NCBI GenBank assembly: GCA_964035575.1
Contig: OZ037922.1
Location: forward strand, 496,001 to 560,000
Direction of reading: 5' to 3'
Length of the DNA: 64,000 nt
Source: Rhynchopus sp. YZ270_cl-10
Lineage: Eukaryota > Euglenozoa > Diplonemea > Diplonemida > Diplonemidae
Below are positions 1,345-63,347 of this stretch, piece by piece (position 1 is the stretch's first letter; each line of letters opens with the position of its first letter). The notes beneath the pieces are model-generated. The model was not told the origin of the DNA, made no database searches, and saw only the letters and a program-made list of their open reading frames with translations. The position numbers were made by a program, and so were the translations under genes.

Positions 1345-1402
1345 ACAAAGGGTTGATAAAGATGAACCTAAGCCCCAGTTGTGCTTAGTCACCTTAAACA
1401 AA
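1345..1402 (-). repeat. Family A stem-loop repeat (LINE 3' tail)
   Basis: The minus-strand core GGTGACTAAGC - loop - GCTTAGG forms a stem-loop and is followed by TTCATC and a pyrimidine tract. This is the same sequence that ends the LINE copies at 39.9 and 43.3 kb. Confidence 0.65.
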
Positions 1403-1773
1403 ATGGGGGGTTTTCACCAATACAATTGGGGATTTTTTTAAAATTTTTTTTTTGATAATGGTATGGGTAGGAAGTTAGTGAGAGGGAAGAGTTGCATCAT
1501 AGAAAATGATGACAACTTTGCCTTTTTATTATTATTTTGATGAAATTGTTTGAATAGTGTAACCTGAGCAAGCTCCACTTTCCTTTTAACCCTTTAGACC
1601 CCAAGCCGTTTTTTGGACCCACTTTTGAGTTTTGGTTTTTGGGGCTCTCCAACCGGTAAAGGGACCCCAGATGCAAATTTTTGATCGTACCTGGCCGCAA
1701 TTGAAAGATTTTGAACACGGCTTTCAATTCCATTTTTTTAAGTTTTTTTTCGAAAAAAAATATTATCCCCAAA

Positions 1774-2733
1774 GGGGTGGCATCAAAACAAAAAACGCGG
1801 ACAATGTCCGCGTTTTTGGGGGGGGAGGGGGGGGGTCTGAAATTCCAGAAAACGCGGACATTTTGGGGGTTTTTTTTCCTCGAAAATTTTTTTCTTCACT
1901 GGGGTCGTACACGATTTTGACCAAAATTTATAAAAACTCGTCCATTTCGGCAAATTGACCCCACCACAGAACCGGCGGATTCAGGAAATGCAAATGCCGG
2001 TGTTTTCGGGCAAAATAAAAAATACAAGATGCCCGCGTTTTTTTGCAAAATGTACACGAATGGGGGGCCCTTAAACCCCTGCTACCATGTGCTTCTACAG
2101 GCAAACACTTGGACCCCTTTACCTTACACTGACGGGTTTTGACCAAAATCAAGAACTTGTCCATTTTGGCAAATTGACCCCACCACAGAACGGACGGATT
2201 CCGGAAATGCAAATGCCGGTGTTTTTGCACATTTTCATGGTTTCAGCATCAGAGAGAGAAAATCTGGGTTGTGGGATTTACCTTGGCCCCTTTACCTTAC
2301 ACTCATTTTGACCAAAACCAAGAACTTGGCCATTTCGGCAAATTGACCCCACCACAGCGCGGACAGATCCCGGAAATGCCAATCGCGGCATGTTTTGGGG
2401 CTGAAAAATTTTCACCTGAAAATTTTTTTCAGCAGCATTTTTTGGCCGAAAATGGGCCCCACGTATTAGTGACCGGGCTCATATTTTCAAAAATTTAAGT
2501 GGTCAAAAAATTGTCCAATTTTCGAGATTGACCCCACCACTTTCTGGACGGATTCCGGAAATGCCAAAAAACTGTGTTTTGGGTCACGAATTTGCACCCC
2601 GTCACCCAAAAACCAGCAAAAAATAGGGGGAAAAAAAACAAAAAATGTCCGCGTTTTGGGGGGGGGAGGGGGGGGGTCTGAAATTCCCCAAAAACGCGGA
2701 CATTGTCCGCGTTTTTTGTTTTGATGCCACCCC
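1774..2733. repeat. Inverted arms with inner palindrome, inside the piggyBac-like element
   Basis: Positions 1774-1817 are the reverse complement of 2690-2733 over about 44 bp. Each arm carries the palindrome CGCGGACAATGTCCGCG. Between the arms lie four degenerate direct units (near 1912, 2138, 2308 and 2497). Each unit contains TTGACCCCACCAC and GGAAATGC, spaced about 170-225 bp. Related units form the interior of the hAT-like elements at 27 and 46.7 kb. A further inverted copy of about 2435-2555 lies at about 3408-3545. Confidence 0.75.
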
Positions 2734-3984
2734 AAAATGAGGTGAGCACAAAATCCACCTTTCGATTTTTTACTCGTCCAGCCGAGCGAGGGGATATCCC
2801 TAAATTATTCCTCTCCGAAAATGGCGTTATTTGAAAGATTCGCCACAAAATCTTTCCAAAGAAAAACAAGTAATTGCTATCGGAAAAAAAACGGGGTGTG
2901 CTGTGGTTATGGGAGGACCCACACTCCTGAACACCGCCCTGTAGAAATAATCTACACTCTGCTCTTCTGCAGGTATGCGAAAACGTTGCCACAACCACTG
3001 GGATGTCTGCACTTGAAACGTTCAAGAACGGGGGCTGTCATCCTCAGACCCCTCTTCGTCCAGCACCATTTGCTCGATGGATGGTCGGCGTGTTCCAGCT
3101 CGTTGTCGTCCACAGCCTCCCACTCATCGTCGCCGGAGGAGGAGTGCGCAAGGAACACAGACGACTAACTGTCGTCGATCACACCATGCGACTCAGCAAA
3201 TCGCCAGGCTGCTATGTTGGTTTCGAAAATCGCGCGGAGTTTCCCACAGCACACCTCGTTTTTTTTCTTGGCAATTCCTTCTCTTGTTGTTGTTGTTTTC
3301 CACACACCTTCCTTCAACCCTTGTAGGATCAGTTGCTATTTTTTTCTAGAAAACATGAAATTACACATTTCTAGAGAACAAATTAAAAAGGGTCCTTATT
3401 TGCATTTTTGGGATCCGCCCGTGCAGTGGTGGGGTCAATCTCGAAAATTGGACAATTTTTTGACCACTTAAATTTTGAGAAATATGAGCCCGGTTGCTTA
3501 TACGTGGGGCCCATTTTCGGCTACAATTTTCCTCAAAATCTGGTTTTGTAAAATTGACCCTTTACTCCCCCCCCACATCGATTTCAATACTATACCTTAC
3601 TTCACCTACGGTTGCCCTTACAGGGGGGGTGAAGGAAGGTAAGTTGAAAAATCGAGCAAAAAGTCCTAGTGGAACCCAACTTAGATGAGTGTAGCTCTGT
3701 TGACAGCATGTCTAAAAATCGATTTCCCTAACGATTTACACTGAAACACCACTACACAACGTAAAACTGCGATTTTTTCACGTTTTTTGGCATCTACAGG
3801 CCCGAAACACCCCCAGAATGGGTCAGAACGACCCTGTGAGCTGAAAATTCACAAAAAAAGCACCCTGCAATACGAAAAAATAGTGAAAACCCGGCTTCTA
3901 GTGTGTTTTGGGTGGGAATAAGGCAAAGGATAGTCAGAAAAACAGTGATTTTGGTGGTGGTTCTCACGGACTTCCAAAGTGCAC

Positions 3985-4640: not shown

Positions 4641-4705
4641 ATATTCCTAATTGTATGGCGCCATTCTGCTACCCATATATGGGTATCTGGGGTCTAAAGG
4701 GTTAA

Positions 4706-6042: not shown

Positions 6043-9000
6043 CTAACGATGTTGTACTGTGGGCGCTGGTGCTGCACCATTTGCATGGGTACCTATGAGG
6101 TGGTGGTGGTAGGCTGTGTCAAGCAAAGCTGTGTAACATACCCGCTGTGCTTGCAAGGTGCAGTCCCTGGTGGCGTGGTTGCCGGTGGTGCGCTGCTTGC
6201 GGCTCTTTATCGCTGATGGCAGTGGGAGTGTTGTTGTGGCGGGGCTGGTGCGACGTGCGGGCATTATGTGCTGTTGCTGCTGCTGCTGCACCTGTTGCTG
6301 CTGTACCTGCTGTTGTTGTTGTTGTTGTTGCTGCTGGTGATGTTGCTGTTGCTGCACCTGTTGCTGTTGTTGCATCTGCTGATGATGTTGCTGAGGTTGC
6401 TGCTGTTGGGGCATCTGCTGTGTCGGTGGCAGTGTCGGGGATACCTGCGCCGGGGGGTCGTTCTTGGGCACAAGCCCACTGCGCTCCAACCTAGCCATGA
6501 AGTGCTTTGCGAAGGCAGCACGCCCAAGGAAGTGTGTATGCGGGCTGAGGAACGACGCGAGGAGTGCCTTCTGGTCATCCGAGCTCATGTCGAAGATCCT
6601 TTGCACGACAAAGCTGCCGTACTGGTCGATCATGATGGAGAGGATGCCCGACACGCCGTCCTGCCTAGGGGACTCGGCAAGCTCCTCAAGCATTGCACGC
6701 CTGCTGTCTGCGGTGGCGTGTGTGTAGAGCACCTCTACCACGTTGCCTGCGTACTTATGCACAGCCAGCTGTGCGAGCGAGCCCTTCAGCTTCTCAAGCG
6801 CATCAACGTTCATGCCCAGAGCCGTGTTGTGCAACATATGCTGCACCACGTGGTTGCCGAACTGATCCGTGCACAGCGTTGGCAGTACCGCCATGATCTC
6901 CTGCAGCAGCGTCCCCAGGCACTGCGGCTCTGTGGCGTACTGCAACAGACGCTGCACACTCCTGCACGCGTAGGCATGCATGGACACAGCCATCGCCTTG
7001 CCCTTGATCGCCTGCACAACAAAGTCCTGCGGCCCACACAGCTCAAGGGTCTTCTGGAAGACGTGGTTCCCGTTCTGGTCCTGCATGCACCGTAGCGCGC
7101 CCTCGCGCAGCTCCTTCAGCAGTGCCTGGCGCTGTGCCTCGGAGCTGAACTCTAGGTACTTCTGCACAACCCTGCAGCCGTGGGTTTGCAGAGTAAGGTT
7201 GAGCGCATTAGCCTGTAAAAAAAAAGGGATAAATTCATATATCATAATTTGATAAAAGGATGTGCAGTGCCAATAGGCAACGTACAGTAAGCAGTGCAAT
7301 AAATAAATGCGACCTGAAATACAAAGACGGAATAATCCACCACGGAGTCCTCATCAAACCAAAGGAGACCACGACTCCCAATGTAGATGAACCCACAGGA
7401 CGGACTGGAAACCACGGTGAAGGCGGCACTGCGCTACGGGGTCCGTCGGGACGGTATTTTTTGGATACCATCCCGGTGAAAATTTTTGCCCGAGGGAGCC
7501 CGTTGGGACCCGAGCGGACCCTTGTGGGTCCACGAATCACGTTTCGGCCCCCTTCTCTCAGCGTGGGGCAATAGAAGCAGGGCCACGCTCGGAGGACTCA
7601 CGGCGCGCGTCCGGGTCCGTGAGCGGGAGCGAGCAGGGAGAGCCGCAGCCGCCCCCCGACAGCCACCCCCACGCCAGGCCGTCCACGACGACCTTCGGCA
7701 CCACGTCGGTGCCGTGGGGCAGATGAAGTTCGGCGCATTTTACCAGATAAGCACATCACACTACATCCGGATACCTCCTGCCGCAGCCGCCCCCAGCCGC
7801 AACAGGGAGGGGTAAGGGGGGCGAGGTCCCCGCTGTATCCCTCACACTGCCACCTACCAGTGAGGCTACCACCCCCTCCTCCATCTTGGACATGTGATAT
7901 ATCCAACACAACCTATGACAGGAAGGCATCGCATACGAACCATATGAGGACCGTATCATCACCACAGACAGCTGCTCATCATCGAGGACAAGCAGGAAGG
8001 AACGCAACGCAGGGAAGGAGGTGAGGAACGCCCGTGTGTGGACCAGTAACTATGATGTCATGATGTCCACATACATCTGATAAACGTTGAAAATGCACAA
8101 CACCGTTATCGGAGTGTTCAAACATACAACCCTCGACATACCTGGATGCATTGGTACAAGGTGTCCCGCATCGAGTCGTCCCCATGCTCAATGAGCTTTT
8201 GGATGACGTAGTACCCGAATGGGTCGTGCATGAGCTGGAGCGCGCTGCCTTGCACCTCGGCGAACACGAACGCAACATCCTCCTCTGTGCGCCCGCAGTC
8301 GAGCTTGCGCTGCAGGAGGCACGCACCGTCGGGGTCCTTTGCGAAGTCTACGATGCAGCCTGCCAGGTCCTTGATCTCCCAGGCACGTACATGGCAGGTG
8401 TTGCAGTACTCCTCCAGCACCTTCGACCGCACCACCCCCTGCCGCACACTCCCATTCAACGAGAATGACCCATTCGACACCGGCGTCGTCGGCGACTCCA
8501 ACACCTCAAAGCCCTGCTCCGGCGTCATCGGCGCTGCCAACGGGGTGCCCATTGGTGTACCAACACTGCTCAACTGCCTTGCCTTATACTGCGGCACATG
8601 CGGAAGCATCCCCATCATCGGCGGGGTCGCTGGCGGGGACCGCGCCCCATTCATCGCACCCACCGAGGTCGGGGTGGAGTACGCACTGTTGTACTCCGCA
8701 AAGCTGCTGTTCGGCACCGAACCAATCCGACGCAACCCTGCAGGCACATCACTCTGCCTCAAATGAGGCGACGGCACTCTGTACCCCGGCTGCGGAAGGT
8801 ACGCACTGTTCCCCGACTGCTCCGACAGCGTTGCACCCCCTGACGACGTCTGCGGGCTGTACCCCTCAAACGCCCTGGCCGCCCCTGGGATGAACGGAGC
8901 AGCCATGCTGTTCAACCCTGCCGCCACCTTCGTCAGAGGCTTGACCACTGCAGGAGGCAGTGCGCCGTTGTCATGCAGCTTGGCTGCGTTGTTGTGGGTC

Positions 9001-9365
9001 ATCTCATCGTCGGAAGACTCCCTATCCTCAACTAACGCTGGCAAAGCGGTGGGAATCTGCGCCGCAAGCCGTCTGCTCCGCCACTGCTGGAAGCATGCTG
9101 ATACTTCCTCATTACCAGTCGCATCGGCTGTACTGTGGTTTGGTGTCCGTGAAGCAGCGTTCTTCGCCCCAACAATCGCACAGTGCGTCTCATGGCTTAC
9201 CACCGGAGGCAACACCCGCGGATCTCTCGGGAACTGGCTGTAGTACCACTTCGCGTACTCCGCAGACTCACGGTACTCCTCGCCCTCTTCCACCTCCCAT
9301 GTGCTCTCCGGTGCACAAGGCAGAACAGGGGCGCTGCTACTCCGACGAAGCACCTCCCGTGCCAT
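6043..9365 (-). CDS. Pumilio/PUF family RNA-binding protein
   Basis: PUF proteins bind 3'-UTR motifs in the cytoplasm and repress or destabilise mRNA. Exons are 9365-8142 and 7212-6043, with a 929-nt intron (donor GTATG, acceptor TTTACAG, phase 0), giving 797 aa. The N-terminal about 280 residues are disordered. Eight PUF repeats follow: two end exon 1 (DPDGACLLQ, DPFGYYVIQ) and six open exon 2 (HGCRVVQ, QNGNHVFQ, YACRSVQ, QFGNHVVQ, YAGNVVE, QYGSFVVQ). Base-contacting residues of repeats 3-7 are C-R/Q, N-H/Q, C-R/Q, N-H/Q and G-N/E. By the known PUF code these predict a core close to UGUAUA. Repeats 1, 2 and 8 are less canonical. A long Gln/His tract and a basic tail end the protein. The intron holds a GC-rich, non-coding stretch. 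The family call is firm; the target is inferred. Confidence 0.93.
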
Positions 9366-15068: not shown

Positions 15069-15117
15069 AGTGGAGTTCATCCTCGGGTGAAAACACTAAT
15101 ACAACCAAGTTTTCAAA
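15069..15117 (+). repeat. Family B stem-loop repeat, reversed orientation
   Basis: Reads GTGGAGTTCATCCTCGGGTG... then ACTAATACAACCAAGTTTTC on the plus strand. Every other B copy shows this on the minus strand, so this is the one exception found to the orientation bias. Confidence 0.75.
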
Positions 15118-15143
15118 AAACACAAAACAAAACAAAGAGTCAT

Positions 15144-15257: not shown

Positions 15258-15838
15258 AAGAGTGGTTGAAAAAAAAGCCTGCTAAAACGTCATCTCAGCC
15301 GAGCTCATGAAAGTGGGTGGGATGTGAGAAGGGGGAAAAATAGAGGGGTTTTTAGAAAAATTTGTTTTGGCAAAGGAAGGTAAGAAAAAGGGAGATTTCT
15401 TGAAAGATGGACCTGGTCAATCGTTCATGCGTATAAAAAAAAAGAAGTTGTAAGATAACTGAAGCCTAAGCTTAGTCGCCTTAATAACTTTTCATAGGGG
15501 CGGTGGTGAAGTGGGGGTGGGAAAGTGCAAAATGTTTCTGCAGATTCGCAGACACCGGAAAATAAAGTGAAGTTGATAGTGCAAAACGCCTTCTTGGGAC
15601 GCAAGGCACTTAACACATTGGGAGTTGCTTTTGACAGATACGAATAATAGAATGGTTTTGCAGTCATTACAACAAACACTCAGTAGGGGGTTAAAAAAAA
15701 ACCTTTCCTTAAAGTTTTGAAAATCCTAAAATACACCATACTTTCCCCCCTCCTCCCCACCAGCGTTTTGTTGTATGACCGAAGAATGAGCTCTGAGCTT
15801 CTCTGTGCTCAGTAAATAAAGTGATTTTTTCCTTTCTT

Positions 15839-18781: not shown

Positions 18782-21700
18782 TCACAACGACCCACACTCA
18801 TCTGCATCTGGCGGCTTGTTGTAGCGCTGGGAAGAGAGCAGGCTTTCGACTTTGTCTAGCTCCTCTTCTTCACCTCCTTCACCTCCGTCGCTATCGCTTT
18901 TGAAGAATTCGTTGACGGGAAGTGTTGGCTTCGCGAGACCCGATCTGACAAGCATGACACCTAATACCAAAAAGAGGAGACCCACTGCACCGGCCAGGAG
19001 GTACAACCAGAGAGGGGTGCCGCTGTCGCTGTCTTCTTCACATGAGGCCACCTCACTGCCGATGTTGCTTGCATTGCTGCTGCCACTGCAGGAGCAGACG
19101 AAGTCGCCTAATACCTTAAACCCTGTTTCATCGGAGCAAACCTGCGTTCCACAGACCAACGCAATGGTGCCGTTGGTGCATTCGTTGATCACCTCCGGAA
19201 CTGCTCCCAATGGTGCAACTGAACATACTGCGGCCACCCCAATACTCTGTCCTGCAATGCGTTGCCCCTCAGCACCGTCCATGCAGGTGCACACAAAGTC
19301 ATTTGTTGAGGTCCAATCCAGGTTTACATCTCGGCAGGTCTGCCGCGGACCACAAGGCGGTACCGTGCTGGAACATTCATCGACAGTGCAGCCAGATCGA
19401 CCCCCTACCCCACCTCCCGGGCAGATGCATGAATAGTCCCCGGAGAGCGAGGTGTTTGGATCGCTGCAGGTCTGGTTGGCCCCGCAGGGGGAGACTAAGC
19501 ATTCCCCGAGTGGCTCGCATTCGGCAGGACGCCCTGTGGCGGAGATGCTGTTGTTGCAGGAGCAGAGGAAGTCGAAGCGGGAGAGGGCAGAGGGGTTGGG
19601 GTCTTCGCAGGATTGGAAGGCCCCGCAGGGGGTGTCGGTGCATTCGTCGCAGGAGGAGACGGGGGCAGAGTGGTTGCGTGCCCCTGAGGGGCAGTAGCAG
19701 TAGTAGTCGCCGAGGAGCGTTGTGCTGCTGTCTTTGCAGATCTGCCCGGGGCTGCAGGGTGATGTATCGCATTCGTTGATGCCGCAGGATGTGACGCGTA
19801 CGCCGGTGGCGTTCTTCGTAGCGTCGGCAATGCATGAGCAGACGTAGTCAGATGCGAGGTCAGAAGCATCGATGCAAGTCTGTTCGTCGCCGCAGGGAAG
19901 CATGTCGCATTCGTTGGCGGTGCAAGGTGCCGCCCCACCCACCCGAGATATCGTGCCATTCTCACAGCCACAGCGGAAGTCGTTCAGACTGTTCGCATCG
20001 GTGTTCCCGTCCTCGCAGGTCTGGTTGAGGCCGCAGGGGCGTGTGAGGCATTCGTCGAGGAAGCATTCGGGGATGCTGCCTTCGATGGAGACGCCGTTGT
20101 CGCAGGCACAGCGGAAGTTCCCGAGGGAGGAAGGGTCCTGGTCGCGGTCGTAGCAGCTTTGTGTTGCATCGCAGGGCTTTGCGGTGCATTCGTCGTAGGA
20201 GCATGTGGCGTTGGCGGCTGTCGCGACGATGCTTGCGTTGCGGTCGCATCTGCACTCAAAGTCGTTCACAGAAAGTGCCGAGGTATTGGTGTCCGTGCAG
20301 GACTGCATGCCGGTGCAAGGTGTTGTGGCGCATTCGTCGATGGCGCATAACGCAGCTTTCCCCGTAGCGGAGGCGGACCCATCGTTGCAGGCGCATGAGT
20401 AGTCTGCTGTGGCCGTCGTGGTGGAAGTAGGGTCCGTGCATGTCTGTGCCGGGCCGCATGGTGAAACGCTGCATTCGTCCAAGATGCATTGTGCACTGCT
20501 GCCGCGGCTGCTGCCAGTGGCAGGGCTGAGGCAGGTGCAGACAAAGTCGCCCGTAGACTGTGCGCGGGTGTCCAGATCCGTGCAGGTCTGGCTGGTGCCG
20601 CAGGGGGTAGAGGTGCACTCATCCAGCGTGCATGTGGCGGGCGCCCCGACAGCCACAGCCCCGGTGCCTGTGGTGCAGGCGCAGAGGAAGTCTTCTGTGC
20701 TCGTCGTAGTGGTGGATGGGTCGGTGCACTGCTGTCCGGGGCAGGGTGTCGTAGAGCATTCGTCGTGGCTTCCTGCCTCGCAGACGGCGGGTGCGGCTGT
20801 GGCCTTTGCGGAGCTTGGTGGCAGGCAGGTGCATGTGTAGTCAGAGAGCGAGACAGCGCTTTGTGCATGGTCCGTGCACGTCTGGGTCGGTCCACATGGC
20901 GATGTGGCGCACTCATCAAGAACGCAGCGAGGAACTGCAGAAGCAACTGAAGTGAGCGTCGCATCGTTGTCGCAGGTGCACACAAAGTCGTTCAGTGCGG
21001 GGCTCACCTCACTGCAGATCTGCCCAACCCCACAAGGACTGGAACTGCATTCATTTCCATCGCACACCGCAGGCACCCCCACCCCCTTTACCCCGTTGTC
21101 ACATTCACAGACGAAATCGTCCCTCGAGAGGGGGGACGGGTTCGGGTCCGTGCACATCTGTCCTGTGCAGGGGTTGGGCGTGCATTCATCACGCTCACAT
21201 GCTGCCGCAGCTCCAGTCCGCGCTGTCGCAATGTCCTCAATGCATGTACACACGAAGTCGAGGCGTGAGGTGGCTGCTGTGTTGGGGTCCTTGCACGTCT
21301 GTCCGAGCCCACAAGGTTCTCCTGTGCACTCATCAACCACACAGATCGGTTCCCTTCCTGTGGCATTGACACCGTTGGTGCACCGACACACATAGTCCAG
21401 AAGCGAGTCCAGCGTGGGCACCGGGTCGTCGCAGGAGAGGCTGCCACACACCTTCGCGAGGCACTCATCCCGCGGACATTCAGGGACAACCGGCCCCAAC
21501 ATCGTTGCTGCACCCGGCGCATGGTCGCAGACACATGACCAGTCACCTAGACTGTTCGCAGCTTTGTCCGGGTCCAGGCAGGTCTGTGCTCTGCCGCAGG
21601 TTACCTGGCTGCACTCATTGTTTGCACACACAGGTGAATACCCGATGGCCGAGACAGATGGGTGGTCCACACAGGTGCACACAAATGTGTAGTCCTGTGT

Positions 21701-22552: not shown

Positions 22553-22758
22553 CACCCTTCAGGCCTGTAAAATGAGGGTGAATGAGGGGTATGGGCGGGG
22601 GTGCAAAAAGAGAATAAAATTTACTTTATTTTTGTTTGTTTTTCATCTTCCAACAATGATTTCATCCATTTTTTTTACAAAAAAATACTAAAGGGGATGT
22701 TCTGCTCTCTTTTACTTATATTTTTCCCTAAAAAAACCTCAGCACACACTACACATGC

Positions 22759-27791: not shown

Positions 27792-27799
27792 GACAGGCA

Positions 27800-28146
27800 A
27801 ATGAAATGTTTTTTTTTTCTCTCCTTTTTTTGGTAGTTCCAGTGGTAAGATCAACAAGCGTACCATCACCTCTTTTGCATCATCGACAATCACCCCCCCA
27901 TATCCGAGGACCACTTCTCTAGGCTCATGAACTCTTTTTAAAAAAAAATTCCAAAAAAAATGGTGTTCCCGAAAGGGCCCATATTGACAGGTCCTTGACA
28001 TGTCTTTGACACAAGGTTTACAGGGGAAAATGACACACCCCCCCTATATTGACATGTCCTTGACATGTCGTTGACATGTCCCCGACAGCAGATCGGTAAC
28101 ACCAAAAAATAATAATAATCAAAGTTCCCCATTCTCCCCCCTCTCT
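27800..28146. repeat. Intergenic with TTGACATGTCC short tandem units
   Basis: A family E fragment lies at about 27878-27915. From about 27985 to 28088 there are repeated 11-bp units related to TTGACATGTCC, partly interrupted. A similar 11-bp array of GTCAACGACCT occurs at 45338-45390. The left part is presumably the 3'-UTR of the oxygenase gene. Confidence 0.6.
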
Positions 28147-42753: not shown

Positions 42754-43096
42754 TGTGCTAACGCCTTGCACTGCTGGGTGCGTCTACGTGTGCGTGTGTG
42801 TGGTCGGCTTGCTCGCTACGACTCGGCTGTCTCCTCACCCGCTGCAGATGCAGGTGCAGGCACGAAGTGGGGGAAAAAAAAAAACGAAAAAGGGCTCAAA
42901 GAACGACCTTTCACTCTAATACGCGAGCATAGGGTACTTAAGGGGGGTGGGGGTTACCCTGTATCTACAAGAAAGTGTTGGGGACGTGGGGTGGTGTTGG
43001 GTGATACAGAGCATAATTAATACGCCCCCCCCGCATAGCACCAATACAGTGGATACTTGTATTTGGCTGCAGAGTTCGCTTGCCAAAAAAAAATAA

Positions 43097-43142
43097 GAAA
43101 AGTTTATAAGATGATCCTAAGCCTCTCGTGCTTAGTCACCTT
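43097..43142 (-). repeat. Family A, representative solo copy
   Basis: Minus strand: GGTGACTAAGCACGAGAGGC, completing the stem CTAAGC/GCTTAG, then GATCATCTTATAAACTTTTC and T's. Other copies lie near 1345, 5455, 13505, 15440, 29893, 32212, 34134, 36172, 36437, 36690, 37685, 38770, 42447, 44757, 48600, 50402, 53770, 53933 and 61382. All are on the minus strand. Eight or more lie in introns. Confidence 0.8.
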
Positions 43143-43333
43143 AAATAATATCTGCTTTTGTGCAGCTCCTGAGGCAGTCAAATAAATTCTTCTCGTGCTA
43201 TTGCATATCCGACTGAGGTCCATTTTTTTCTGCGGAAGAGAACTAGAGCGAGGACCCTGGCTGAGTATGACCGAAGAGAGAGGCAGCGTGCAAATATCGG
43301 AGGGAATTATTCATTGAATGAGAAGAAAAAAAG

Positions 43334-44635
43334 AAAAGTTTATAAGATGATCCTAAGCCTCTCGTGCTTAGTCACCTTATCATATTCGTTATCGCACAGC
43401 ATCAGCTGCGCTGGCTTCTACAAGTTTGTTGTCAGGGATGATATCATTTCCCCAGCCGGAGTTCGTAATTTTGGCACGTACGATGACGTGTTCGAGCATG
43501 TGCATGGTGTAGCGCGGGTACGTAAAAACTGGGCGACGGTCGTAGCCAATAAGTCCGGGTGCGCCAATGGACCGGAGGCCCCGTGAGGAGGAGATGGCAG
43601 ATGCAGGAAATGGGTTTTGAATCCCAAGGGCTTTGCACAGGCGGTGAAGCTTGTTGAGCAATGTGCGCAAGGCGGCGGCCCGTTCTCTAATGTTAGAGGT
43701 TGGCCGGAGAACGTAGATCCTGTGGAAAATTTCCAAGTCAATGGCAAGTTCCACGCATGTCACAGGCAGGTTGGCAGTACTCCATTTCAGGGAGGAGGCC
43801 CATTGGAGCATATTTTTCAGTTCGCGGCGCTTCTGCTTGCATCGCGGGTCATCGTCCTTCCCAAAGAAAGGGGCGAGCTGCCGGTAGATGGCCTCCTGGT
43901 ATGGGGGCGCATCGAACACTTCAAAGTCCATACGCCATGGGTGGCGTGCAGGCGCTGTGGTCGTCCGCGAGGACAGGTGATCATCTACTGCGGTGGTGAC
44001 GTCCAGCAGGTATCTCTGCATGTCGGTTACTACGTGCTTGGGCGTGTTCGTGGGAGCTATGCCATGCATAGCCAGGCAACTCGGGGTGTTCGGGCCGATC
44101 CTGTCGAGGAGAGGGCGGTGCGCTTCCTTCACGTTAGCAGACACAGTGTGCGGGCAAGTCCACAGCAGGTGCTTCGCCAGCCCGGTGGTTGGTGTGAGGC
44201 ATAAGGGGCACTGGTTCGCTTCGAGGTGTATGCCACCTCTCTTTGTTGACTCGTATAGGCACAGCACCGTAGGGTGCGCGTAGAGTATCCCATCGCAGAT
44301 GATACGGCGGAGGCGGTAAGCTAGTAGGGGGTGGGACCACTGCAGTTGGTCGTGCAGGTACGTGGTGTCGGCGAGGTTGACACCGTATTGAGCGCCGTCG
44401 TAAGTCGGTCTGTCCAAGGCAAGATCTGTGAACTTCTGTCGTCGGACGATTTCGCGAATGGCGTGGTGTCGTTCACCTGGCGCGAGAAGACCTAGGGCGT
44501 GTGTCTTCTCTTCTTCCACGGGTGCACTCGAGAGCTCCGTAACGGTTGTTAGGTCGTCACACCATCTCACGCCTGTCAGTATGCTAGTGGAGGTCATGTT
44601 GCCGACCGGCCCGTGGGGGCGGAAGTCCCAGCCTC
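43334..44635 (-). mobile_element. LINE copy 2, 5'-truncated
   Basis: The open frame 44597-43389 (402 aa, continuing open to about 44635) is the C-terminal part of a non-LTR retrotransposon protein. A CCHC knuckle CPLCLTPTTGLAKHLLWTCP is typical of the region after the reverse transcriptase and RNase H domains in LINEs, including trypanosome ingi-like elements as I recall. The few differences from copy 1 imply recent activity. The 3' end is the family A stem-loop and T tract. It lies just upstream of the eIF4G-like gene. Confidence 0.75.
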
Positions 44636-44666
44636 CAAAAAAATGTTTTTAAAATGAACCACGCCT

Positions 44667-44720: not shown

Positions 44721-46147
44721 GACGCTGTCCCACTCAAACTGGCCACCGTGAAGGAGAAGAAAAAATGTACATAAGATGAACCAAGCGGTAGGTGACCTTG
44801 AAACAACCATTGGAATGAAAGGAGAAAATAAGAGGGGCTGGTGAGGGGGGGAGCGTTCATTTTCCTCTAACTTCAAGTGTTGCTGCTGGTGTTGTTGCGT
44901 TATTTTTTCTTTTGTTTCAACAATCCCCTGCCTGGAAGCAGGCTCTGCCACACAATGTCGCCCGAAGGCTTTTTTTTCTTGGACTAAGATGGAAAACATG
45001 ACATCAACAAAAGCGCCTTTTTTTTGTTGTGTCGGCAATCACCTTAAATACCCACCTATGTGGATAATTATGGTTTTGTACTCAAAAAAAAATGTTGACC
45101 GAAGCCTTTTCTCGTACTACGAAAGTATCTGTTGATAAATTTGGTGGAGTAGTGTAGTTTGCCTCGGTTGTGTTTGCCACAGTTTGTGCAATCTCCACTG
45201 TAATTTTTTTTTTTTTTTGAAAATTTGGTTGTATTAGTGAAGCCACCGAGGATGAGCTTCACTATACCTTCTGTTTTTACTGCATCGACAAATCACTTTA
45301 CACCTACTACTAAGCATCTGTGGTGCTTTCGGAAGTCGGTCAACGACCTGTCAACGACCTGTCAACGACCTGTCAGTGACCTGTCAATATCGACCCCTTC
45401 CCGGAGCACCAATCTGTCCTAAATGTCGGCCGAAGCCCTTTTTTTATCTCAGCTTTTTATGTGTTTTTTTTTTTTGAACTCCCCAAAATTGTTGTCGTCA
45501 AACTTGCCTTTTTTTTTGTCTTCAAAGAAACAATTCATAATGTCAAAAGACAATGTTGATGTACAACAATTACAGGCTAGGATTAGACATCCAATAAGAG
45601 TGTCTGTTTTTTTTTTTTTTTGAAATTTTCAGAAAAAATTTTGTTGAAATAGTGCAGTTGCCACTCAATGTCTCGTAGATCTCCACATTTCCTCAATTTT
45701 TTTTTGAAATAAAATGCACAGTTCTGCAAGAATCGCTTTTCCCTCCCCGCTCATTCTCATTTTTTTTCTATACATATTTTTTTTTCGGAGTAGCAGAGAA
45801 AAGAAATCTTGAAAGACGAAGGCAAAGAATAAAAAAAAAGAAAAAAAAGGGTTTTTTTTTTTGTGCACTCAAAGAATGCTCAAAACTAATTTGTGGGTGA
45901 TGCCTTCCCACCCACCGTCACCCCACCACCACCTATTCACCCCCCGCCACCACTCACACATCTCACAAAAGCACAAACCCATACAGACGCGATGACCATA
46001 CACCCATCTTCAAGGCAGCTGCTCCAAACGAGATAATAGTTATTTTAAAACGAAAGAGAGAGAAAAAAAGAGGTGGGGGGAAGAAAAAAAAACGTTAAAT
46101 TGGGGAGGAATGGATGGTGGTGGTGGTAATGGGTAGTGAGAATTTTC

Positions 46148-46182
<35 letters not shown>

Positions 46183-46184
46183 GC
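44721..46184. other. Intergenic, composite stem-loop repeats
   Basis: Family A (about 44757-44800), E (44916-44972 and 45028-45110), C (45131-45201), B (45216-45266), then an E unit (45284-45440) interrupted by an 11-bp tandem array of GTCAACGACCT (45338-45390), then C (45648-45690). An A run of about 32 precedes the hAT-like element. No gene was seen. Confidence 0.6.
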
Positions 46185-46192
46185 CTTGACAA

Positions 46193-47068
46193 CAGAGCTC
46201 GCGCTAAAGTCCATCCCTCATCCCGGGATTTTTGGGGGTTTTGGTAGGAACGTTTTTTTTTTGCAGTACGGGGATTTCATTAAGAAACCAGAAGTTCTAA
46301 TATTGTTGAGTAAGACCACCACATAGTGGACTTGGATATACATGTGACCCCGCCGTGGAACGCAATTGGCTCGGAAAGTCAAAAGAAAGAGGAGAAAAAA
46401 GAAAAGGAAAAAAAAAAAAAAAAGTTGGGTACCGTGCGCCTGCGGCGCTGCCTGTTCCCTTCCAGTTTCTACAGGCAAACACTTGCCCCCTTTACCTTAC
46501 ACTGACGGGTTTTGACCAAAACCAAGAACTTGTCCATTTCGGCAAATTGACCCCACCACAGAACGGACGAATTCCGGAAATGCAAATGCCGGTGTTTTCG
46601 CGCATTTTCATGTTGCAAGACGTCAGGATCAGGGAGAGAAAATCTGGTTGTGGGATTTACATTGGCCCTCTTTACCCACATGGATTTTGACCAAAACCAA
46701 AAAATTGGCCATTTCGGCAAAGTGACCCCACCACAGCGCGGACGGATTCCGGAAATTCCAATCGCGGTATGTTTTGGGGCTGAAAACCCACTGATTTTCA
46801 GGAGAAAAATTGCTTCCAAATCTCGGAATTTTCCGAATTTTCCTGAAAATGACCCTTGTTTACGAGTATGGGTTCATATTTTGCGAAAATTTAAGTCACT
46901 AAAATTTTGTCCATTTTTCCGTATATACCCCACCACAAGCCGGGATTGGCCCGGAAATGCCACAAAACGGGGTTTCCGGGCCTCCCCAGCTAACCTTTTC
47001 AAGGAACGTTTTTCCGTACCCGAAATCCATTTTTTCCCCATTTTTTCCCATAATTAGCGCGACCACTG
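46193..47068 (+). mobile_element. hAT-like MITE, copy 2 (876 bp)
   Basis: The inverted copy of 26917-27791, with the same CAG...TCGCGCTAA termini. It is flanked by the exact 8-bp duplication CTTGACAA (46185-46192 and 47069-47076). Near-identity of the two copies, each with an intact but different duplication, indicates two recent independent insertions rather than a segmental inversion. Confidence 0.87.
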
Positions 47069-49080: not shown

Positions 49081-52000
49081 CTAGCTTTTGGAAACGTGTT
49101 CCGAAACAGATTTGATGTACTTCTCTGCAAACGTTGCGCGGTCTGGGTTGACACGGGCGATGACGTTCGAGAAGAAGGAGAGTGGCTGCGACATCTTGTC
49201 CTTGCCGATGTGGCCGACCACGCTGCTCAGGAGTGTGACGTACTGCGAGTGGTCACCCCACTTCGACAGCTTATCAGGGTCTGCTACGAACTTCACCCAA
49301 TCCGCAGAGAGCACCGCCGACAGCAGCTGGTACGAAGTTTCCGCCTGAGGGGATGGGGGTGTGTTTTGCAAAGAAAGACAGATTATAGCTACACACAATT
49401 ACTTCATACACTTTTCTATTCTACTGAATAGAAGGTATAATAGGTGCACTAAATGTACACATAAAAAACGGTATGAAAGTGCGAAAACACCTCGCCGTTC
49501 ATCGACAAACGCAGACACTAATTCTCCACGGGTTATCGAACCCCCAGAGAGCACTTCATGGAGGGGTATCTTACATAAATCAAAAAAGCCACATAAAATA
49601 AAGCTGCGCAAAATTCAAAAATTCGCACAAATGAATTCAACAGGTATGCAAGATTACCGTAAATTTTTGTAAGATTCACCACAAAAAAAACACTCCTCTT
49701 TTTTGCATACTGTGAGCGCGGAAGCCTCGGGTTCCACATCGCGGAGAAGCCCGTCGAGGAGCTTGGCACTGCCGCACGATGCACCCCATGCAGCAGAGTC
49801 TTGGCGGACCTGCTGCAGCACGGCCCCTGCGTCCTTCGACGTTCTCGTTGCCTTCGCTGCAAGCGAGGATGCGTACATGCACGGCAGGTTTGCCTTTGTG
49901 AAGATGTCAAGCAACGCCTTGACCTGCTCCTGCAGGCCAGTGTCCATCGCCATGCCTGTAGAGGATGGAGTAGAGGTGGGGATAAAAAGGCTCAGGTATT
50001 TTGAATATTTTGAAACAGATCAAAATCGGCAAAAATGAAGCTAAAAATAGGTGTTTGCAAGCCTTGGTAATCTTTAAACCCAAAAACCATACCAAGTACA
50101 GAAGGGGCGGCCTCAGAGTCAATCATCTTCTGGGTGTGCACACCCTGGACGAAGGTGGCGAAGTGTGTCCAGCTGGGGTGGTCTACGGGGAACCGTGAGA
50201 TGCAGCTAACGGCAGCGGTCGTGACTTCGCACGGGGGCAGATGGGAGGATGACTGTGTGCGGTGGTTTGGGTATTTTGGGGTGGTAAGACAATTTGTGTA
50301 ACCTAGTTGACAACACAAACGCCTCTGGGACACTAACGTTCCCTTCGGGTAATCGAACCTCTCGAGTGTTGTGAGGGAGTACGCCGCCACAGTCATATAA
50401 AAAAGAAGATACGTCTATAGACCCAGAAGCCGTGCTTAGTCACTTCGATCAAAAAAAAAAAGGGGGGGTGGGGACGTGCAGGGGGGGAAACAACGCTCAT
50501 ACCACCATGTTCATGAAACGCCCCAGCCCCTTTGTGATGGTTGCTGCGTTTGGCTGGTCTGAGTTGTTCAGTGCCTGCATCATGGCGTCCTGAACAAGGC
50601 TTGTGAGCTCCTCGGAGTTGCAACGCATCAGCTGTTGGGTGGGGGGTGTGTGTGCATACGCCAGTCAGTACCTTCTGCCAGTGCAACGCAAAGACAAGGT
50701 AGGTGCCGCGAATACAACTTGACCCGAATTTTGTGTAAGTGTAAAAACTGAAAGTCAGATTGGTGTCAACACACACTAAATTACAGTAAAAAAAAGATTC
50801 CCCGTTTTTCCTAAATCGTGCAGTCCACCTATCTTGAACAAAAATGTAAAACAGAGTGAAGTTTGATAGTAAACGCCACTACGACAACAGCTGAAAAAGT
50901 GAAACTCTTTTCAAGTAAAATGCAGTCCAAGGGAAAACAAAGGTGTTATGTGACACCGTTCCGCAGTCGTTTTTTGAACCCACGCAAATAATCTTGAAAA
51001 ATAAAACTTTTTTTATCATTTTTCCTTCTTCATACCTTCTTGCTCATCTCCTCATCGCAGGGATCCTGGCTGAAGCAGTTCACCACCTGCGCCACTGTCA
51101 ACTCCTCGACACTCTTGAACTGCGAGTAGGTCGTCTTGGTCATTTCTTCCATGACGATCTGCTTGTTGATGTCCTGGAGGGTCTGCGGACCGCCACCCAT
51201 CTTGGAGTTCACCTTGCGTGAGTCCCAGCCGTTGTTTCTGAGGTCGATCAGATCTTGGATGAGGAAGCCCAGACGTGCCGTTCCCTTGTTCATCCTGATT
51301 TCGTGGAGGGTCTCGAAGTATCGCTGCATGTCTTCCTTCTTGGGGTCCTTCGACTCCTTTTCCAATGAACGTCCTACAGTCTCAAGCAGCTTCACAACCT
51401 TCTCTAATCTCTCGTCATCAAGGTTTTTGTTGTCAAGAAGCAAATTCTTCAGCACACTGTGGATAATCTTTTCCGTCAGCAACTGCCGTTTGTAGAGCTC
51501 CCCAACAAAGTGGATGTTGTTGAGCGCGCGTTTACGGAGCCGCCCCTTTTCAACTTCATCAGGAATGTCTTGCTCCTGCTTCTTAATTGCCTCTGTGTAC
51601 TCATGCTGGCAGGTCGTGATTAACGCTTTACGGAAAGGTTCTGACCCGGTTGTGACCTGGAGTGCCTGAACGTTATGCCGTGAAAGGTCCATGCACAGAT
51701 CCGCGTACACCGTGGTGAAGTCCTTCACCGCAACCGCCTCTTCATACACAATAGCAACAATCTCTTTGAGCACCTCCTGCCGTTCTTTGTCGTCCACCTT
51801 CTTCATCGCCTGCTCCATCACGTCAACCATCTGCATCTTCAGCGAACTCCGGTTCTCCGGGGTAAGCTTGTTAAGAATACCCTTCACCTTCCTGAACGCC
51901 AGCTCCTTATCCGTTTGGCGTGCTTTGTTAGCAGTGATGCTGTTAATCCCGGTGCTCTTTGTTGCACGCCAGCTTTTACGGTATTTTTCAACAAAGAGTG

Positions 52001-53198
52001 TAAGCTCTCTAATCGGTTGACGATGCGCTTCGAGGTTGTTGAGGACGTCCTTGTAGATGGTGATCATCTGGTCGAAGGTGGCGCCCTTTCCGTTGGGTCC
52101 TCTTGGGTCGCCAGCTGGGGCGACGATGGAGATGGCGTGAGAGGGGCGTTTAGCCTGCCCTGGGAGTTGCTGTTGTTGTTGTGGTTGCTGTTGACCGTAT
52201 GCTGCCTGCGGCTCGCCAGGCTTGGTAACTCCTGCGGGCTTGGGGTGAACGGGAAGCATTGGGCCAGCGTTGGGCGAAACACCCGGGGGAATAGGTTGCT
52301 GCATCATATACCCTTCAGGGTGCTGTTGGTGCGGCAGCTGGTGTGGGTACCGCTGCTGCATCATGGGGTCACCACCCATCTGGTGCATCTGGTTAGGGTC
52401 CTGCGGGAGGTGGGAGTTCATCTGTGGTTGGTGCATCGGCTGCATAGGGGGCTGGTGTACGGGGTTAGGCTGTGTATGGTCGATGGGGGCAGGGACCGGT
52501 TCTGGCTTTGGTTCTGGCTCCTTCTCCTTCTCCTTCGCCTTCACCAGAGGTGCCGACTTTTGGTTTTTCTTCCCTCTCTGGGTGTCGCCGGGGAAGCCAC
52601 AGCTTCCGTTGCACCCCATAACCTGGGTGCAGAATTTGACACATAAATGCGCCTCCTGGTCCGGCTTTGCTGCGTCGTGTTTGATACGTTTGCAGCCGCA
52701 TCCTTTCTCTGGCGCTTTGCTTTCGGGTTTGGCATCAGGGGCGGGGGCGGGGGTGGGGGCAGGCTCGGGGGTTTTCTCGCCAGGGTTGAGAGGGAGGGGT
52801 TTACCGTTGAGGGGGTTGAGCCAGATAGCGGGGCGGATGACCTTTACCTCGACAGGGGGTGGTTGGAACTGTGGTCCGGGCTGTTGTTGGAACTGTTGTT
52901 GGTGGTGCTGGTGGTGGTGTTGGTGCTGCTGTTGGTGTTGGTGTTGGTGCTGGAAGGGGGCCTGCTGCGCAGCCATGCCCGGCTGTGCTACCTGTCCAGG
53001 GTTCTGTTGCTGTTGCTGCTGGTAGAACTGTTGCGGGTTGATGTTCTGCTGCGGCTGCTGCTGCTGGCCATAGAACTGCTGCTGTGGCTGCTGCTGCTGC
53101 GGGGGGTTCTGCTGCTGCCCGGGAAGCTGTTGTTGGTGGTGTGCATGGTTACCTACCCCCCCCGGTGCATAGGCCTGCTGTTGGCCGTTCCAACTCAT
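49081..53198 (-). CDS. eIF4G-like MIF4G protein, paralogue 2 (five exons)
   Basis: Exons: 53198-51036, 50631-50503, 50252-50093, 49955-49711, 49344-49081 (2961 nt, 986 aa, in frame, donors all GTATG). The N-terminus is Gln/His-rich. IWLNPLNGKPL and a Cys cluster (CGCKRIK...HLCVKFC...CNGSCG) parallel paralogue 1. A Pro/Met/Gln-rich linker follows. The MIF4G domain (about residues 415-660) has FRKVKGILNKLTPENRSSLK, IHFVGELYKRQLLTEKIIHS and LGFLIQDLIDLRNNGWDSRK, the hallmarks of the eIF4G middle domain that binds eIF4A. Helical C-terminal exons follow. The family call is firm. A clear eIF4E-binding YxxxxL-phi motif was not identified. Introns carry family A and G repeats. Confidence 0.92.
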
Positions 53199-53599: not shown

Positions 53600-53935
53600 C
53601 GCTGGGTGGAGACAGACACCCTGCTCCCATGCCTCACCCTCTCCAGCACATACGATACGTGGAAGTTGTCCGTGCAGACATAAGGTAAGTACAACCGCCA
53701 TTGTTCCCTGCAGAGGGGAAAAAGGTAGAGTTGAAATACAAAGCCCTCTCGTGACAGTGTACCCAAAAAAGAGAAAAGCTGGTAAGATGAGCCTCAGCCT
53801 CACGTCTATGGAGAGAACGGAACGACAGCAACGAAACCACACCACACTGTAGTGTTGCTGATGCAGGCACACCTCCGACTGACCCACGTACGATGCCAGC
53901 CATCCGGATGAAAGCACAAGACCACCAAAGAAAAG
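53600..53935 (-). pseudogene. Possible fragments of an acyl-CoA thioesterase (TesB/ACOT8-like) gene
   Basis: Two minus-strand frames look coding. One (about 53935-53880) reads LFFGGLVLSSGWLAS, like the FGG-x-VL entry of the TesB hotdog fold. The other (about 53715-53600) reads LYLP...FHVSYVLERVRHGSRVSVST, like the YFLRPGD...Y-VER-RDG-SF strand pair. The splice phases tried do not join them in frame, the first part overlaps sequence repeated at 1195-1250, and no further exons are seen. A decayed or partial gene is the most that can be claimed. Confidence 0.25.
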
Positions 53936-54827: not shown

Positions 54828-54986
54828 TAGACATTTTCACAGCGTTTTACGAAGACGTGTAAGACATGTTGTGTCCCAGTCCGGCTGAGAATAACCGGGT
54901 CCCGGTCCCCCATACCCACTCCACCCTACCCTCGAATCACACCATGCATCTTAGGATACTCCATACAGAACACCCCACATACACCC

Positions 54987-60355: not shown

Positions 60356-61248
60356 TGAGAAAAAGAATGAAAAAGAAAAAGAAAAAGAAAGAAAAGTGGT
60401 CAGATGATTCTAAACCTGTGAAAAAGAAATCTTGAAAGCTTGCCTTGGTTACTGCATTGTTCTCCTTGTAGCGGAAGGTTTGTGTAAAAGGATTTTTGGA
60501 GTGTGTGTTTTTCTTTTTCTGAGGAGGGAAGGTGTGGTGTGGGTTAAGAGGTAAAATGCCTGGTGGTGATACACGGTGATGATAATCCCTCCCTTAAACT
60601 ACACCTTACAGTGGTTTGGACTCCAACTAAATTGGAGTCCAAAATAAGGCAGATTTTGAGGGTTTTTTGGGGGTAATTTCAGCAACTTTTTTTGGACAAA
60701 CATATTTGGAGATATTTACACTGAAGACTGTGGATGTCTTGGCTCTGTCATCGATGAAGACTGCTCGCTACACGATATGGCAAATCAATGAAAACTGCGG
60801 AAACTGCAGAAGACCACGAATGACTCAGGGGAAGACTCTGATCATCAAAACGGGGGGGAGGAAGCGGGTTCCATTACATTACCAAAAAAAAAGAAGAAAA
60901 AAAAAAACTTCAGATTTTTTTTGACCCATCCCTTTGTGTTGGATGAAACACAACGGGAAAAAAAAGGGGCAAACAAATAGGGGGGTGATATTTTTTTTTT
61001 GCTGCAAAAAAAAAGAAAAAGAAAAAACCCACAAAAGATAAAAGTGGGGGTTCCTCTTCAATATTTTTTTTGCCCCTTCTTGTTGCATTCCTTTTTAAAG
61101 ATGCCCCACACCCACCACCCCTACCCCAATCGTCGTTGAAAACGACAGAACTCTGTTTTGTTTGTTTTGTTTTATTTTTTTACTTTTTTCCCCTTTTTTT
61201 TTCGATTTTTTTCTCTTCCTTTTTTTTTTGATAATACCGGTCGTGACT
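60356..61248. other. Intergenic
   Basis: Contains a partial family A-like unit (about 60390-60415), A/T and T runs and no credible gene. The frame at 60667-60924 (plus) lacks coding character. The right end is the 3'-UTR of RPB3. Confidence 0.55.
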
Positions 61249-63347
61249 TTAGCTGCCCCAGTTAACATCGCTGCCAGCAGACATTTGCGCGCTGCTAATA
61301 CCAGACATTCCGAACGACGTGCTTGCGCCGCTTCCCATTGTGTAGACAGGGCTGTGTTGTGGTTGTGTTGTTTTTTGAAGAAAGGTTTATAAGATGATCC
61401 TAAACCTCTCGTGCTTAAGTCACTTTTAAATGAGCTTTGGTGGCATAGAAACTAACTTCATCGATAATAAAGATAGAGATTTTAATTTACAAAAATCCAA
61501 ACAGTGTTTCGTTCTAAAAAGCGATTATCCCAAATCCGCCAAACTTATGAGGATGTCAATTTTCTTTTTTGATAAATTGTTGGAGTAGTGTAGCTGCCTC
61601 GGTTGTGTTGCCACAGTTGTGCCATCCCCACTGTTTTTTTTTTTTTTTTTTTTTTTGGACTACTGAATTTCAACTGTCTCTCTGATGACAATATGATGCA
61701 ATGAAGACTTCTTCGCTCCCTTTGAATACAGTGGGGGGAAAAGTGGGACAAAAAACAAAAAGGAGGCGAGGATGGAGGACATACCTTGGCCCTGTTGGGG
61801 GGGTGCCTGACGGGGACCCGCCTCTGCTGCTGCCTGCACCGTCGCCTGCAATCTCTCCTTCACGGTTCTCCTTACGCAGTTTGTTGTGTAAGCTGTCGAC
61901 AGCGTCGTTGGTCTTGTCGTACATGACTGTCATCGCGTCCATCAGCAACTCTTGCGGAAGCATGCACCCGGTGGTTTCTATGCAAAACAAGAATTCGTGT
62001 CTGTGAATGATATTTTTGGTGTTCCAGAAAGGGGATATAGGAAGCTTATGCGGTGGGTTTCGTGAACACCATATTTGGCAATTAATACGAAAAAAATGCG
62101 CCATTTTGTGGCAATCTAAGTACCCCACCTCAGGCAGCAATACTTTGCATTCAATGTGAGCCAAAGGTATAGCATTCTCTTACAGGGATCGATATGCTTC
62201 TATTTGATACAGTTACAAAAAGCTGACCTGAAATACAAAGCCCTCTCGTGAACAGTGTACCTTTGGTATGACTGGGTGTACCAGGGTGGACCCAACCATG
62301 CAGTCCTACAATCCATTTTCGTGGTTTACATCTAAAAAAATAAACGGTATACCTTCCCACGTGGTCCTTCTTTCTCCTGACAGACACCAGCTGTTTTTTC
62401 CCCTTGAAATCCTTGAATGGTTCCTTCTGAATGCCGGTGCATTCGTCGCAGAAGAAGCAGCTGTTCACGTTGTCTGCGTTCACCTCTACTCTGTTCCGCG
62501 TTCGGTCGTAGGAGTACACCTTGCGCGGGCAGTAGCGGATCCACTGCTGTTTATCCGTGGCTGAGATCTCAACGAAGGCCTTTTCGTTCAGTGTGATCTC
62601 CGGGACAAACTGCATGGACACCGTGCACGAAGGGCTCCAACGTGAGTGCTCCTTGGCAATCCCCTTGCGCGCAATGCAACGCAACTTCACCTCCTGGTTC
62701 CTCGCCAGCTCCACCAACACAATAGGATACGAATCTTTACTGTGCGGCTGATGCACTGCCTGCACACGCGACGCCAGCGAACCCTGCTCCGAACAGTTCA
62801 CCAAATCCCTCGAGGTCACCGTTTGCCTGGTAGTCCCAACACAACGAACATTCAGTTCAAACGAAACCGTACAGCGTGGGCAATAGTATTCACAGGAGCA
62901 GTCTCTGGGGTAGACAAGCTCGCGGGCAACATTGGTTGCGATACCGTCCACATCTACCATGGTTTCAACCGGGAGAAGACCGATTCTGTGGACAAGCATT
63001 TCGTCGTGCAGGACACTTTCGTTCTTAATGACCTCGACTGTGTCAAATGCGAGGATAGGGACTTCAGCGATCATAACCCTCCGTAGTGCATTGGCAAAGC
63101 TAGACTCAATATGGCTCGCCTTGAACCTCAGCACATCCCTCGTGTTCTCCAGCACCTCCAGCTCCAGGTCCTGCCCGTCTGCGTTGGGCAGCTCCTTAGC
63201 GGCCTTCATCGCATCCCCCCCACGCTCCACGCTCCCACCCAGCCCAGGGCTCATACCCGACCCAGACCTCCCCATTGAAATGTCACTCCGGGAACCATGC
63301 CCAGAGAGAAGCGACCCCCCACCGGAGGCGTGGGCGGGGGAGTCCAT
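61249..63347 (-). CDS. RPB3: RNA polymerase II subunit RPB3
   Basis: RPB3 pairs with RPB11 to nucleate assembly of RNA polymerase II in the nucleus. Exons 63347-62353, 62000-61785 and 61351-61249 (995, 216 and 103 nt; donors GTATA and GTATG) join in frame, giving 437 aa. The core aligns with eukaryotic RPB3: SSFANALRRVMIAEVPILAF, SVLHDEMLVHRIGLLPV, the zinc site CSCEYYCPRC, VTSRDL, and RKGIAKEHSRWSPS. The choice of RPB3 over AC40 rests on this zinc site and the GKEH-type motif. Exon 2 supplies the end of the dimerisation domain (FCIETTGCMLPQELL). The N-terminus has an unusual extension of about 55 Gly/Ser-rich residues, and the C-terminus a Gly/Ser-rich tail (SGISSAQMSAGSDVNWGS). Intron 1 holds a long D repeat; intron 2 holds A and C repeats. 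Confidence 0.95.
61570..61637 (-). repeat. Family C stem-loop repeat (representative)
   Basis: Minus strand: CAGTGG...TGGCACAACTG...GCAGCTACACTACTCCAAC and a TTTATC tail. The outer stem pairs AGTG-AG with CT-CACT. Lies in RPB3 intron 2. Other copies: near 1543, 9704, 24957, 29970, 33817, 34878, 45131, 45648 and 48788, all in the same orientation. Confidence 0.7.

Follow-up and report, generated by a model that had tools for sequence, protein, structure and literature searches.

Why should short repeats dispersed through a genome nearly all read in the same direction as the genes around them? The question is raised by a stretch of 64,000 nucleotides from the diplonemid Rhynchopus sp. YZ270_cl-10 (contig OZ037922.1, C90 here, positions 496001–560000; hereafter the window), in a genome of 152.4 Mb and 126 contigs. 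A first-pass annotation described several families of short hairpin-bearing repeats in the window, which nearly all share the orientation of the genes, and offered three explanations: purging of antisense copies from polycistronic transcripts, strand-specific insertion, or a role in RNA processing. The second of these proved to be the best supported. The orientation is best explained by strand-specific, probably transcription-coupled, target-primed insertion of a long interspersed nuclear element (LINE) with an APE-type endonuclease, and of its tails, a reading to which we give a probability of about 0.6.

Profiles for seven families (F1, F2/F7, F3, F4, F5, F8 and F9) were applied with nhmmer to the window and to a sample of 20 loci of 10 kb (200 kb, contigs C1–C20), and small stretches from elsewhere were also read. 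A codon model built from open reading frames (ORFs) of the window served to assign the gene strand. The window contained 48 non-overlapping copies, a little fewer than the 'well over 50' of the first-pass annotation, whose family definitions may differ from our profiles. All but one (47 of 48) lay on the minus strand, which is the gene strand (20 predicted coding segments, summed score 1211 for minus vs 20 for plus). The sole antisense copy found, an F3 element on the plus strand at 15070–15118, is the single reversed copy previously placed at 15069–15117. In the other 20 loci, 65 of 68 copies were on the gene strand, so that the shared orientation extends beyond the window. Copies were present in 17 of 21 sample pieces. 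Predicted coding was one-stranded in 18 of the 20 sampled loci (L015 and L024 with one segment each); predicted coding fell on both strands in L017, and the signal in L009 was weak and mixed. One of the three exceptions, L017:6061–6091, adjoins a plus-strand gene in a stretch that, judging by the contig map, would be a minus block, and the other two (one F3, one partial F5) are both in L024.

Counts of sense and antisense copies by profile were 32:0 for F1, diverged copies included, 11:0 for F2, 13:0 for F7 (whose profile overlaps F2), 21:2 for F3, 12:0 for F4, 20:1 for F5, 8:1 for F8 and 6:0 for F9. Family-free k-mer counts gave dispersed words in the sense direction only, such as GGTGACTAAGCA (11:0 across four pieces), together with tandem arrays each limited to one piece. 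In an all-against-all comparison, the cluster with F1 had 200 same-strand and no opposite-strand pairs and the cluster with F3 and F2 had 147 and 24, respectively, whereas elements reaching 0.9 kb, among them the control transposon described below, formed a cluster with an even mix (111 and 105). Neighbouring copies were often of the same type and orientation. The layout of hairpin, linker and T or A run given in the first-pass annotation is confirmed, although a clear folding advantage over shuffled sequences was seen for F1 alone (z −3.5, vs −1.9 for F2, −1.8 for F4, −0.8 for F3, −0.5 for F8 and +0.4 for F5). The window had no Rfam match at gathering score.

By sequence, two of the seven families, F1 and F4, represent the 3′ tails of an APE-endonuclease LINE, each from a different subfamily; such an identity is established for these two only. 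A distant homologue, P0002, led to 358 candidates in the genome, of which 84 LINE ORF copies were scored, 49 of them with uninterrupted frames of 1458–1508 codons. Among 20 LINE copies on contigs C1–C25, 12 have F4 73–84 nt downstream of the ORF match, six have an F1-type tail 76 nt downstream and two have neither. A reverse transcriptase (RT) domain was found in the F4 subfamily (PF00078, 8e-21, L029) and in the F1 subfamily (group G, 88.9–91.5 bits), and an endonuclease/exonuclease/phosphatase domain in the F4 subfamily only (PF03372, 7e-15, L037:2–1447). A constant 3′ end with 5′ truncation is seen in the two LINE copies of the window (copies A and B), in L027 (108 nt) and in L028 (73 nt); to judge by eye, a direct repeat of about 38 nt borders the L028 tail on both sides. 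Among 29 F1 copies whose flanks were read, the LINE body lies upstream of 2, both belonging to the window LINE copies, and is absent from the other 27. F1 and F4 copies are best read as extreme 5′ truncations: the terminal 43–46 nt of the LINE RNA, to which a longer part of the LINE is joined in some cases. A tRNA, 7SL or 5S head with a Pol III promoter, as in a short interspersed nuclear element (SINE), was not seen for F1 or F4, which are LINE tails, and ARAGORN found no tRNA in the window. A T-arm-like helix (ACACTC..GGGTTCGATAACCC..GGAGTG) immediately precedes the F4 hairpin in L029, L033 and L034, near 3110–3200. A tRNA origin of F4, which this helix suggested, was dropped because the helix belongs to the LINE 3′ end.

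Genome-wide maps were based on exact-pattern searches, with orientation taken among the matches listed (100 per pattern); this scope applies to all map counts of F1, F3, F4, the LINE tail and a control transposon. The contigs covered were C1–C7 for F1, C1–C9 for F3, C1–C25 for F4, C1–C52 for the LINE tail and C1–C34 for the control, of which 83 of 100 listed matches were used and 17 on C26–C34 dropped. Gene markers were the complete lists of 92 kinase and 49 AAA motifs, with codon-model markers from the sampled loci; of these, L017, with coding on both strands, was left out of both a stricter flanking test and a genes-only map, and L009 was included in the former only. LINE-tail matches beyond C25 were dropped from the flanking test and kept in the block count and the genes-only map, in which markers were not deduplicated and one strand switch was assumed per contig except C2.

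Exact matches numbered 1293 for F1, 1213 for F3, 501 for F4, 286 for the control and 206 for the LINE tail, and every pattern split about evenly between absolute strands. The F1, F4 and LINE-tail places nevertheless formed long one-strand runs. The 289 unique insertions on 48 contigs included no stray copy: 29 contigs were minus-then-plus, 11 plus only and 7 minus only, with C2 the sole plus-minus-plus contig, giving 31 strand changes vs 120 in shuffles (minimum 98). Gene motifs located between two same-strand insertions agreed with them in 23 of 23 cases (of 141 motifs). On the genes-only map, 105 of the 384 listed F1, F4 and LINE places (not deduplicated) were testable; all agreed with the genes and none disagreed, which puts the upper 95 % bound on antisense copies at 2.8 %. 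The 84 LINE ORF copies gave 17:0 against genes only (17 testable) and 52:0 against all other markers (52 testable). The copies listed are exact matches to the consensus, and therefore presumably young, with none antisense among F1, F4 and LINE. A genome-wide comparison of orientation with gene direction, as the first-pass annotation had proposed, thus yielded neither equal numbers of sense and antisense copies nor a bias limited to the window. On 99 contigs with 544 gene and insertion markers (not deduplicated), there was at most one divergent strand switch per contig except on C2 (49 minus-plus, 25 minus, 24 plus and one plus-minus-plus). Each chromosome seems to consist of two arms with outward transcription.

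The orientation rule does not extend to all mobile elements. The control, an unrelated transposon of about 0.9 kb, has two window copies on opposite strands (26917–27818, plus; 46165–47068, minus) with 99.7 % identity over 876 nt; in the genome, 23 places agreed with the genes-only map and 33 disagreed (56 of 83 testable), and the flanking test gave 20:27. Among groups of RT-bearing elements, agreement and disagreement with the map were 20:0 for LINE-F1, 2:11 for group A, 0:3 for B, 1:1 for C, 2:3 for D, 6:5 for E, 4:1 for I, 6:2 for J, 4:1 for M, 2:2 for O and 4:0 for four unassigned copies. LINE-F1 differed from group A (P=4e-7), from group E (P=0.003) and from all other groups pooled (P=2e-4). 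Group A (L039, C12:346001–355500; L040, C3:1876501–1885500) is a LINE with APE, RT and RNase H domains and an A-rich tail. Its copies were antisense in 11 of 13 testable places (21 places in total), and copies from oppositely directed blocks share 99.8 % identity over 6 kb. Since group A is itself an APE LINE and is near-identical in such blocks, antisense insertion of large retroelements is tolerated. A general purging of antisense copies from polycistrons, the first of the earlier proposals, is refuted by the counts within the same blocks, which are neutral for the control transposon and for group E and mostly antisense for group A; a purge specific to certain families is possible. None of the 14 copies of RT group F fell within an assigned block; they occupied the intervals or the stretches beyond, frequently in clusters and with both strands represented (places include C3:1156485–1190457, C36:838776–893315 and C12:1178054–1208716), which may point to a LINE restricted to switch regions or centromeres.

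The 5′ ends of the LINE point to its mode of expression. A spliced-leader exon, CCAACGATTTCTAAAGCTACAGTTTCTGTACTTCATTG, followed by GTATGG, was found in tandem arrays with U6 genes, and we take it to match the diplonemid spliced leader; two other candidate leader patterns had no match. In L004 and L006, U6 snRNA genes lie inside the spliced-leader tandem array. Of four LINE 5′ regions examined, the copy on C24 starts with the complete leader exon and those on C17 and C41 start with its last 12–13 nt, cut at the same point; for the region on C36 no 5′ end was found. The leader-bearing ends are seen in L037, L035 and L036. Because the leader stands at these LINE 5′ ends, the template RNA was trans-spliced. 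This fits expression from a polycistron, and the LINE is likely to be expressed from that of the host.

A mechanism can be proposed in which the LINE RNA, carrying a spliced leader and probably transcribed within the host polycistron, would prime through its U-rich 3′ end at T-rich sites of the sense strand. On the sense strand, T-rich sequence borders F1, F4 and F8, and A-rich sequence borders F3 and F7. First-strand cDNA would begin on the transcription-template strand, so that new copies would be sense; conversely, the sense orientation of the copies implies that the primer strand would be the template strand of transcription. The choice of strand was probably made at insertion. Tails of 45 nt and LINEs several kilobases long have little in common except the insertion machinery, yet both are one-sided; exact and diverged copies alike are one-sided, and several other elements are not. 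These points favour a choice at that step. A wider form of the proposal, in which target-primed reverse transcription in one LINE clade is obligatorily tied to transcription, with template-strand priming and tails that record direction along whole chromosomes, and in which a second group prefers the opposite strand, is put forward tentatively, at slightly less than even odds.

Several observations weigh against insertional strand choice by a single LINE clade. Insertion is deduced from the genome as it stands and not from observed insertion events. The A-tailed family F3 was 72:13 on the genes-only map (85 of 100 listed matches testable) and 60:8 in the flanking test, and the partial F5 copy in L024 is antisense. 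Target-site duplications were sought but did not appear systematically in short copies (2 of 29 F1 copies exceeded the 95 % control), and three LINE copies had only 7–11-nt T-rich candidates, judged by eye. The small RT groups K (4:0), L (6:0) and N (3:0) were strictly sense, so more than one clade may follow the rule, and all RT groups except LINE-F1 pooled showed a mild sense lean (44:29). The RT-domain search scored 150 of 739 candidates, and its groups rest on score and frame length as a proxy for clade, not on phylogeny.

The alternative that best withstands the evidence is random insertion followed by strong selection against antisense copies of this clade, for example by RNA interference, with antisense tail RNA pairing with thousands of sense tails in pre-mRNA as the trigger. 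Diplonema papillatum encodes RNA interference components (passages of PMC10161547), the strictest families are abundant (F1, 1293 exact matches) and the retroposons termed SIDERs in Leishmania show a milder sense bias (passages of PMC2689281). However, F3 is similarly abundant, yet 13 of its 85 testable places are antisense, and the control transposon, with 286 exact matches, occurs in both orientations. On this account, selection must eliminate no less than about 97 % of antisense 45-nt copies, presumably including young exact ones, and we regard this account as unlikely, although it should be taken seriously.

Polarity could also come from replication, if lagging-strand ends prime the cDNA and each chromosome has a single central origin, whose forks travel in the direction of transcription. 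The presence of no more than one divergent switch per contig, except on C2, would leave a place where such an origin could sit, and the group II intron RmInt1 uses the lagging-strand template (passages of PMC8914252). Against this, a single fork direction would be needed over 1.7 Mb (C1:367466–2072028), RT groups A and E break the rule, and the LINE encodes an APE endonuclease and so need not depend on fork ends. Replication is therefore an improbable source of the polarity, and transcription the likelier one.

A third possibility is that the repeats are functional RNA-processing elements, serving intron definition or trans-splicing and retained in the sense direction only. Copies are numerous, and F1 has a T-rich tract after the hairpin with the first AG later than in shuffled flanks (median 24 vs 13 nt, 26 copies); its ATAAAC is, in our own reading, branch-point-like. 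A splice-acceptor role was considered and found no support, as the fraction of copies within 200 nt of a predicted coding start (0.11) was no higher than under the null (0.12). F1 and F4 belong to LINEs, and covariation in the F1 stem is weak (3 pairs vs 1.3 shuffled; 58 of 500 shuffles). Predicted coding segments contained none of the sense copies tested (52 T-type, 34 A-type); for T-type copies the median distance to the nearest such segment was 940 nt upstream and 1615 nt downstream. In an indirect test, the repeats did not behave as introners, in which the element is itself an intron with terminal splice sites. The RNA-processing role suggested by the first-pass annotation is thus very unlikely. 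Weakest of all, and scarcely credible, is the idea that target asymmetry alone sets orientation: despite the T-rich or A-rich sense flanks and an excess of pyrimidine over purine tracts of at least 12 nt on the sense strand (407 vs 244), this target composition does not set orientation, because homopolymer runs of at least 8 nt are balanced (A 275, T 278) and suitable antisense sites are nearly as many, with a flank model of equally good unoccupied sites predicting an antisense fraction of 0.43 for T-type and 0.46–0.55 for A-type copies vs 1 of 48 and 2 of 29 observed.

Within the window, LINE copy A (43326–44648, minus) is 5′-truncated and ends in an F1 tail (43332–43377) and a T run; its C-terminal ORF (43389–44648) has homology to the C-terminal portion of RT-domain LINE ORFs. 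Copy B (39871–40954, minus), also 5′-truncated, ends in an F1 tail (39877–39922), has T runs on both sides, is the copy to which the window ORF at 39934–40968 belongs and is 98.2 % identical to copy A over 1083 nt. It lies in sense orientation inside a putative 2,021-nt intron of an eIF4G-like gene (39422–41442, minus; CAG/GTATGG ... CACAG/ATGAAG). The intron is supported by coding on either side (41942–42160 and 38843–39415), which matches a paralogue at 51033–53198, and its exact 5′ splice site was placed by reading frame and by the published diplonemid consensus, with intron ends in Diplonemidae given as (G)/GTATG and CAG in the passages of PMC12621601. The one host intron read is GT-AG, unlike non-canonical diplonemid introns, whose ends differ from GT-AG and meet through base pairing.

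The remaining profile copies described here are all on the minus strand. F1 occurs as the tail only at 43096–43141 and 34135–34180, and further at 36689–36733, 36438–36482 (followed in gene sense by F5 at 36396–36417), 36168–36213, 61379–61423 and, at the start of the interval covered by the first-pass annotation, 1348–1394. F3 is found at 32959–33008, 35241–35289, 35455–35503 and 45215–45262, the last immediately upstream in gene sense of an F2/F7 copy at 45140–45201. Other F2/F7 copies are at 34882–34942, 24963–25026 and, at the end of the annotated interval, 61574–61634. F4 is at 15565–15610 and at 29650–29693, the latter preceded in gene sense by F5 (29697–29730), and upstream of F8 (53853–53919), in gene sense, lie F1-like and F5 sequences that share its orientation. 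Of the neighbouring genes, 18782–22558 encodes a CAP-domain protein in a single 1258-codon frame with many cysteine repeats, which we presume to be EGF-like, and Pumilio-type RNA-binding repeats span two adjacent minus-strand frames at 6142–9365, probably two exons of one gene. Outside the window, L017:6369–9266 is a plus-strand gene with a 966-codon span in the putative minus block; it is presumably transposase-like, and its only Pfam match was a weak one to DUF2457.

To our knowledge, LINE insertions in other genomes show at most a modest strand bias, usually attributed to selection. The eel elements UnaL2 and UnaSINE1 form a LINE/SINE pair with a 3′ hairpin tail. They resemble the present system in a 3′ stem-loop common to a LINE and very short copies, but the short copies described here consist of nothing beyond the tail, no tRNA-type head being seen, and they obey a strict strand rule. 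L1Tc/ingi and SLACS are LINEs of Euglenozoa, in which transcription is polycistronic, and SLACS inserts into leader RNA genes. Group A is like L1Tc/ingi in having APE, RT and RNase H; unlike SLACS, the leader here stands at the 5′ end of dispersed copies. Both elements are named in the literature (SLACS in PMC10161547), the relevant passages of which make no mention of one-way insertion. In DinoSL-tagged retrogenes, according to passages of PMC6050394, a 5′ spliced leader marks reverse-transcribed trans-spliced RNA; the leader serves as the same kind of mark here, although the tagged RNA is the LINE itself and the leader is of diplonemid type. In Leishmania, the SIDERs too are short remnants of retroposons scattered through directional gene clusters, with a sense excess reported in passages of PMC2689281 as about 4:1, compared with 105:0 for the gene-testable F1, F4 and LINE places among the matches listed. 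SIDERs are described as extinct, whereas the present genome also contains LINE ORFs with long open frames that terminate in the same tails as the short copies. The titles and abstract openings listed in literature searches contained no case of strictly one-way insertion relative to transcription, the SIDER ratio being the closest among them.

The leader at the LINE 5′ ends indicates that the LINE template is supplied by trans-splicing. A strict LINE beside LINE groups that are not strict offers a way to ask whether transcription or replication picks the strand that is nicked and primed. The orientation of F1, F4 and LINE copies gives a map of polycistronic units in such genomes from sequence alone, and, if insertion on one strand is true, the repeats would serve as markers of the direction of transcription.

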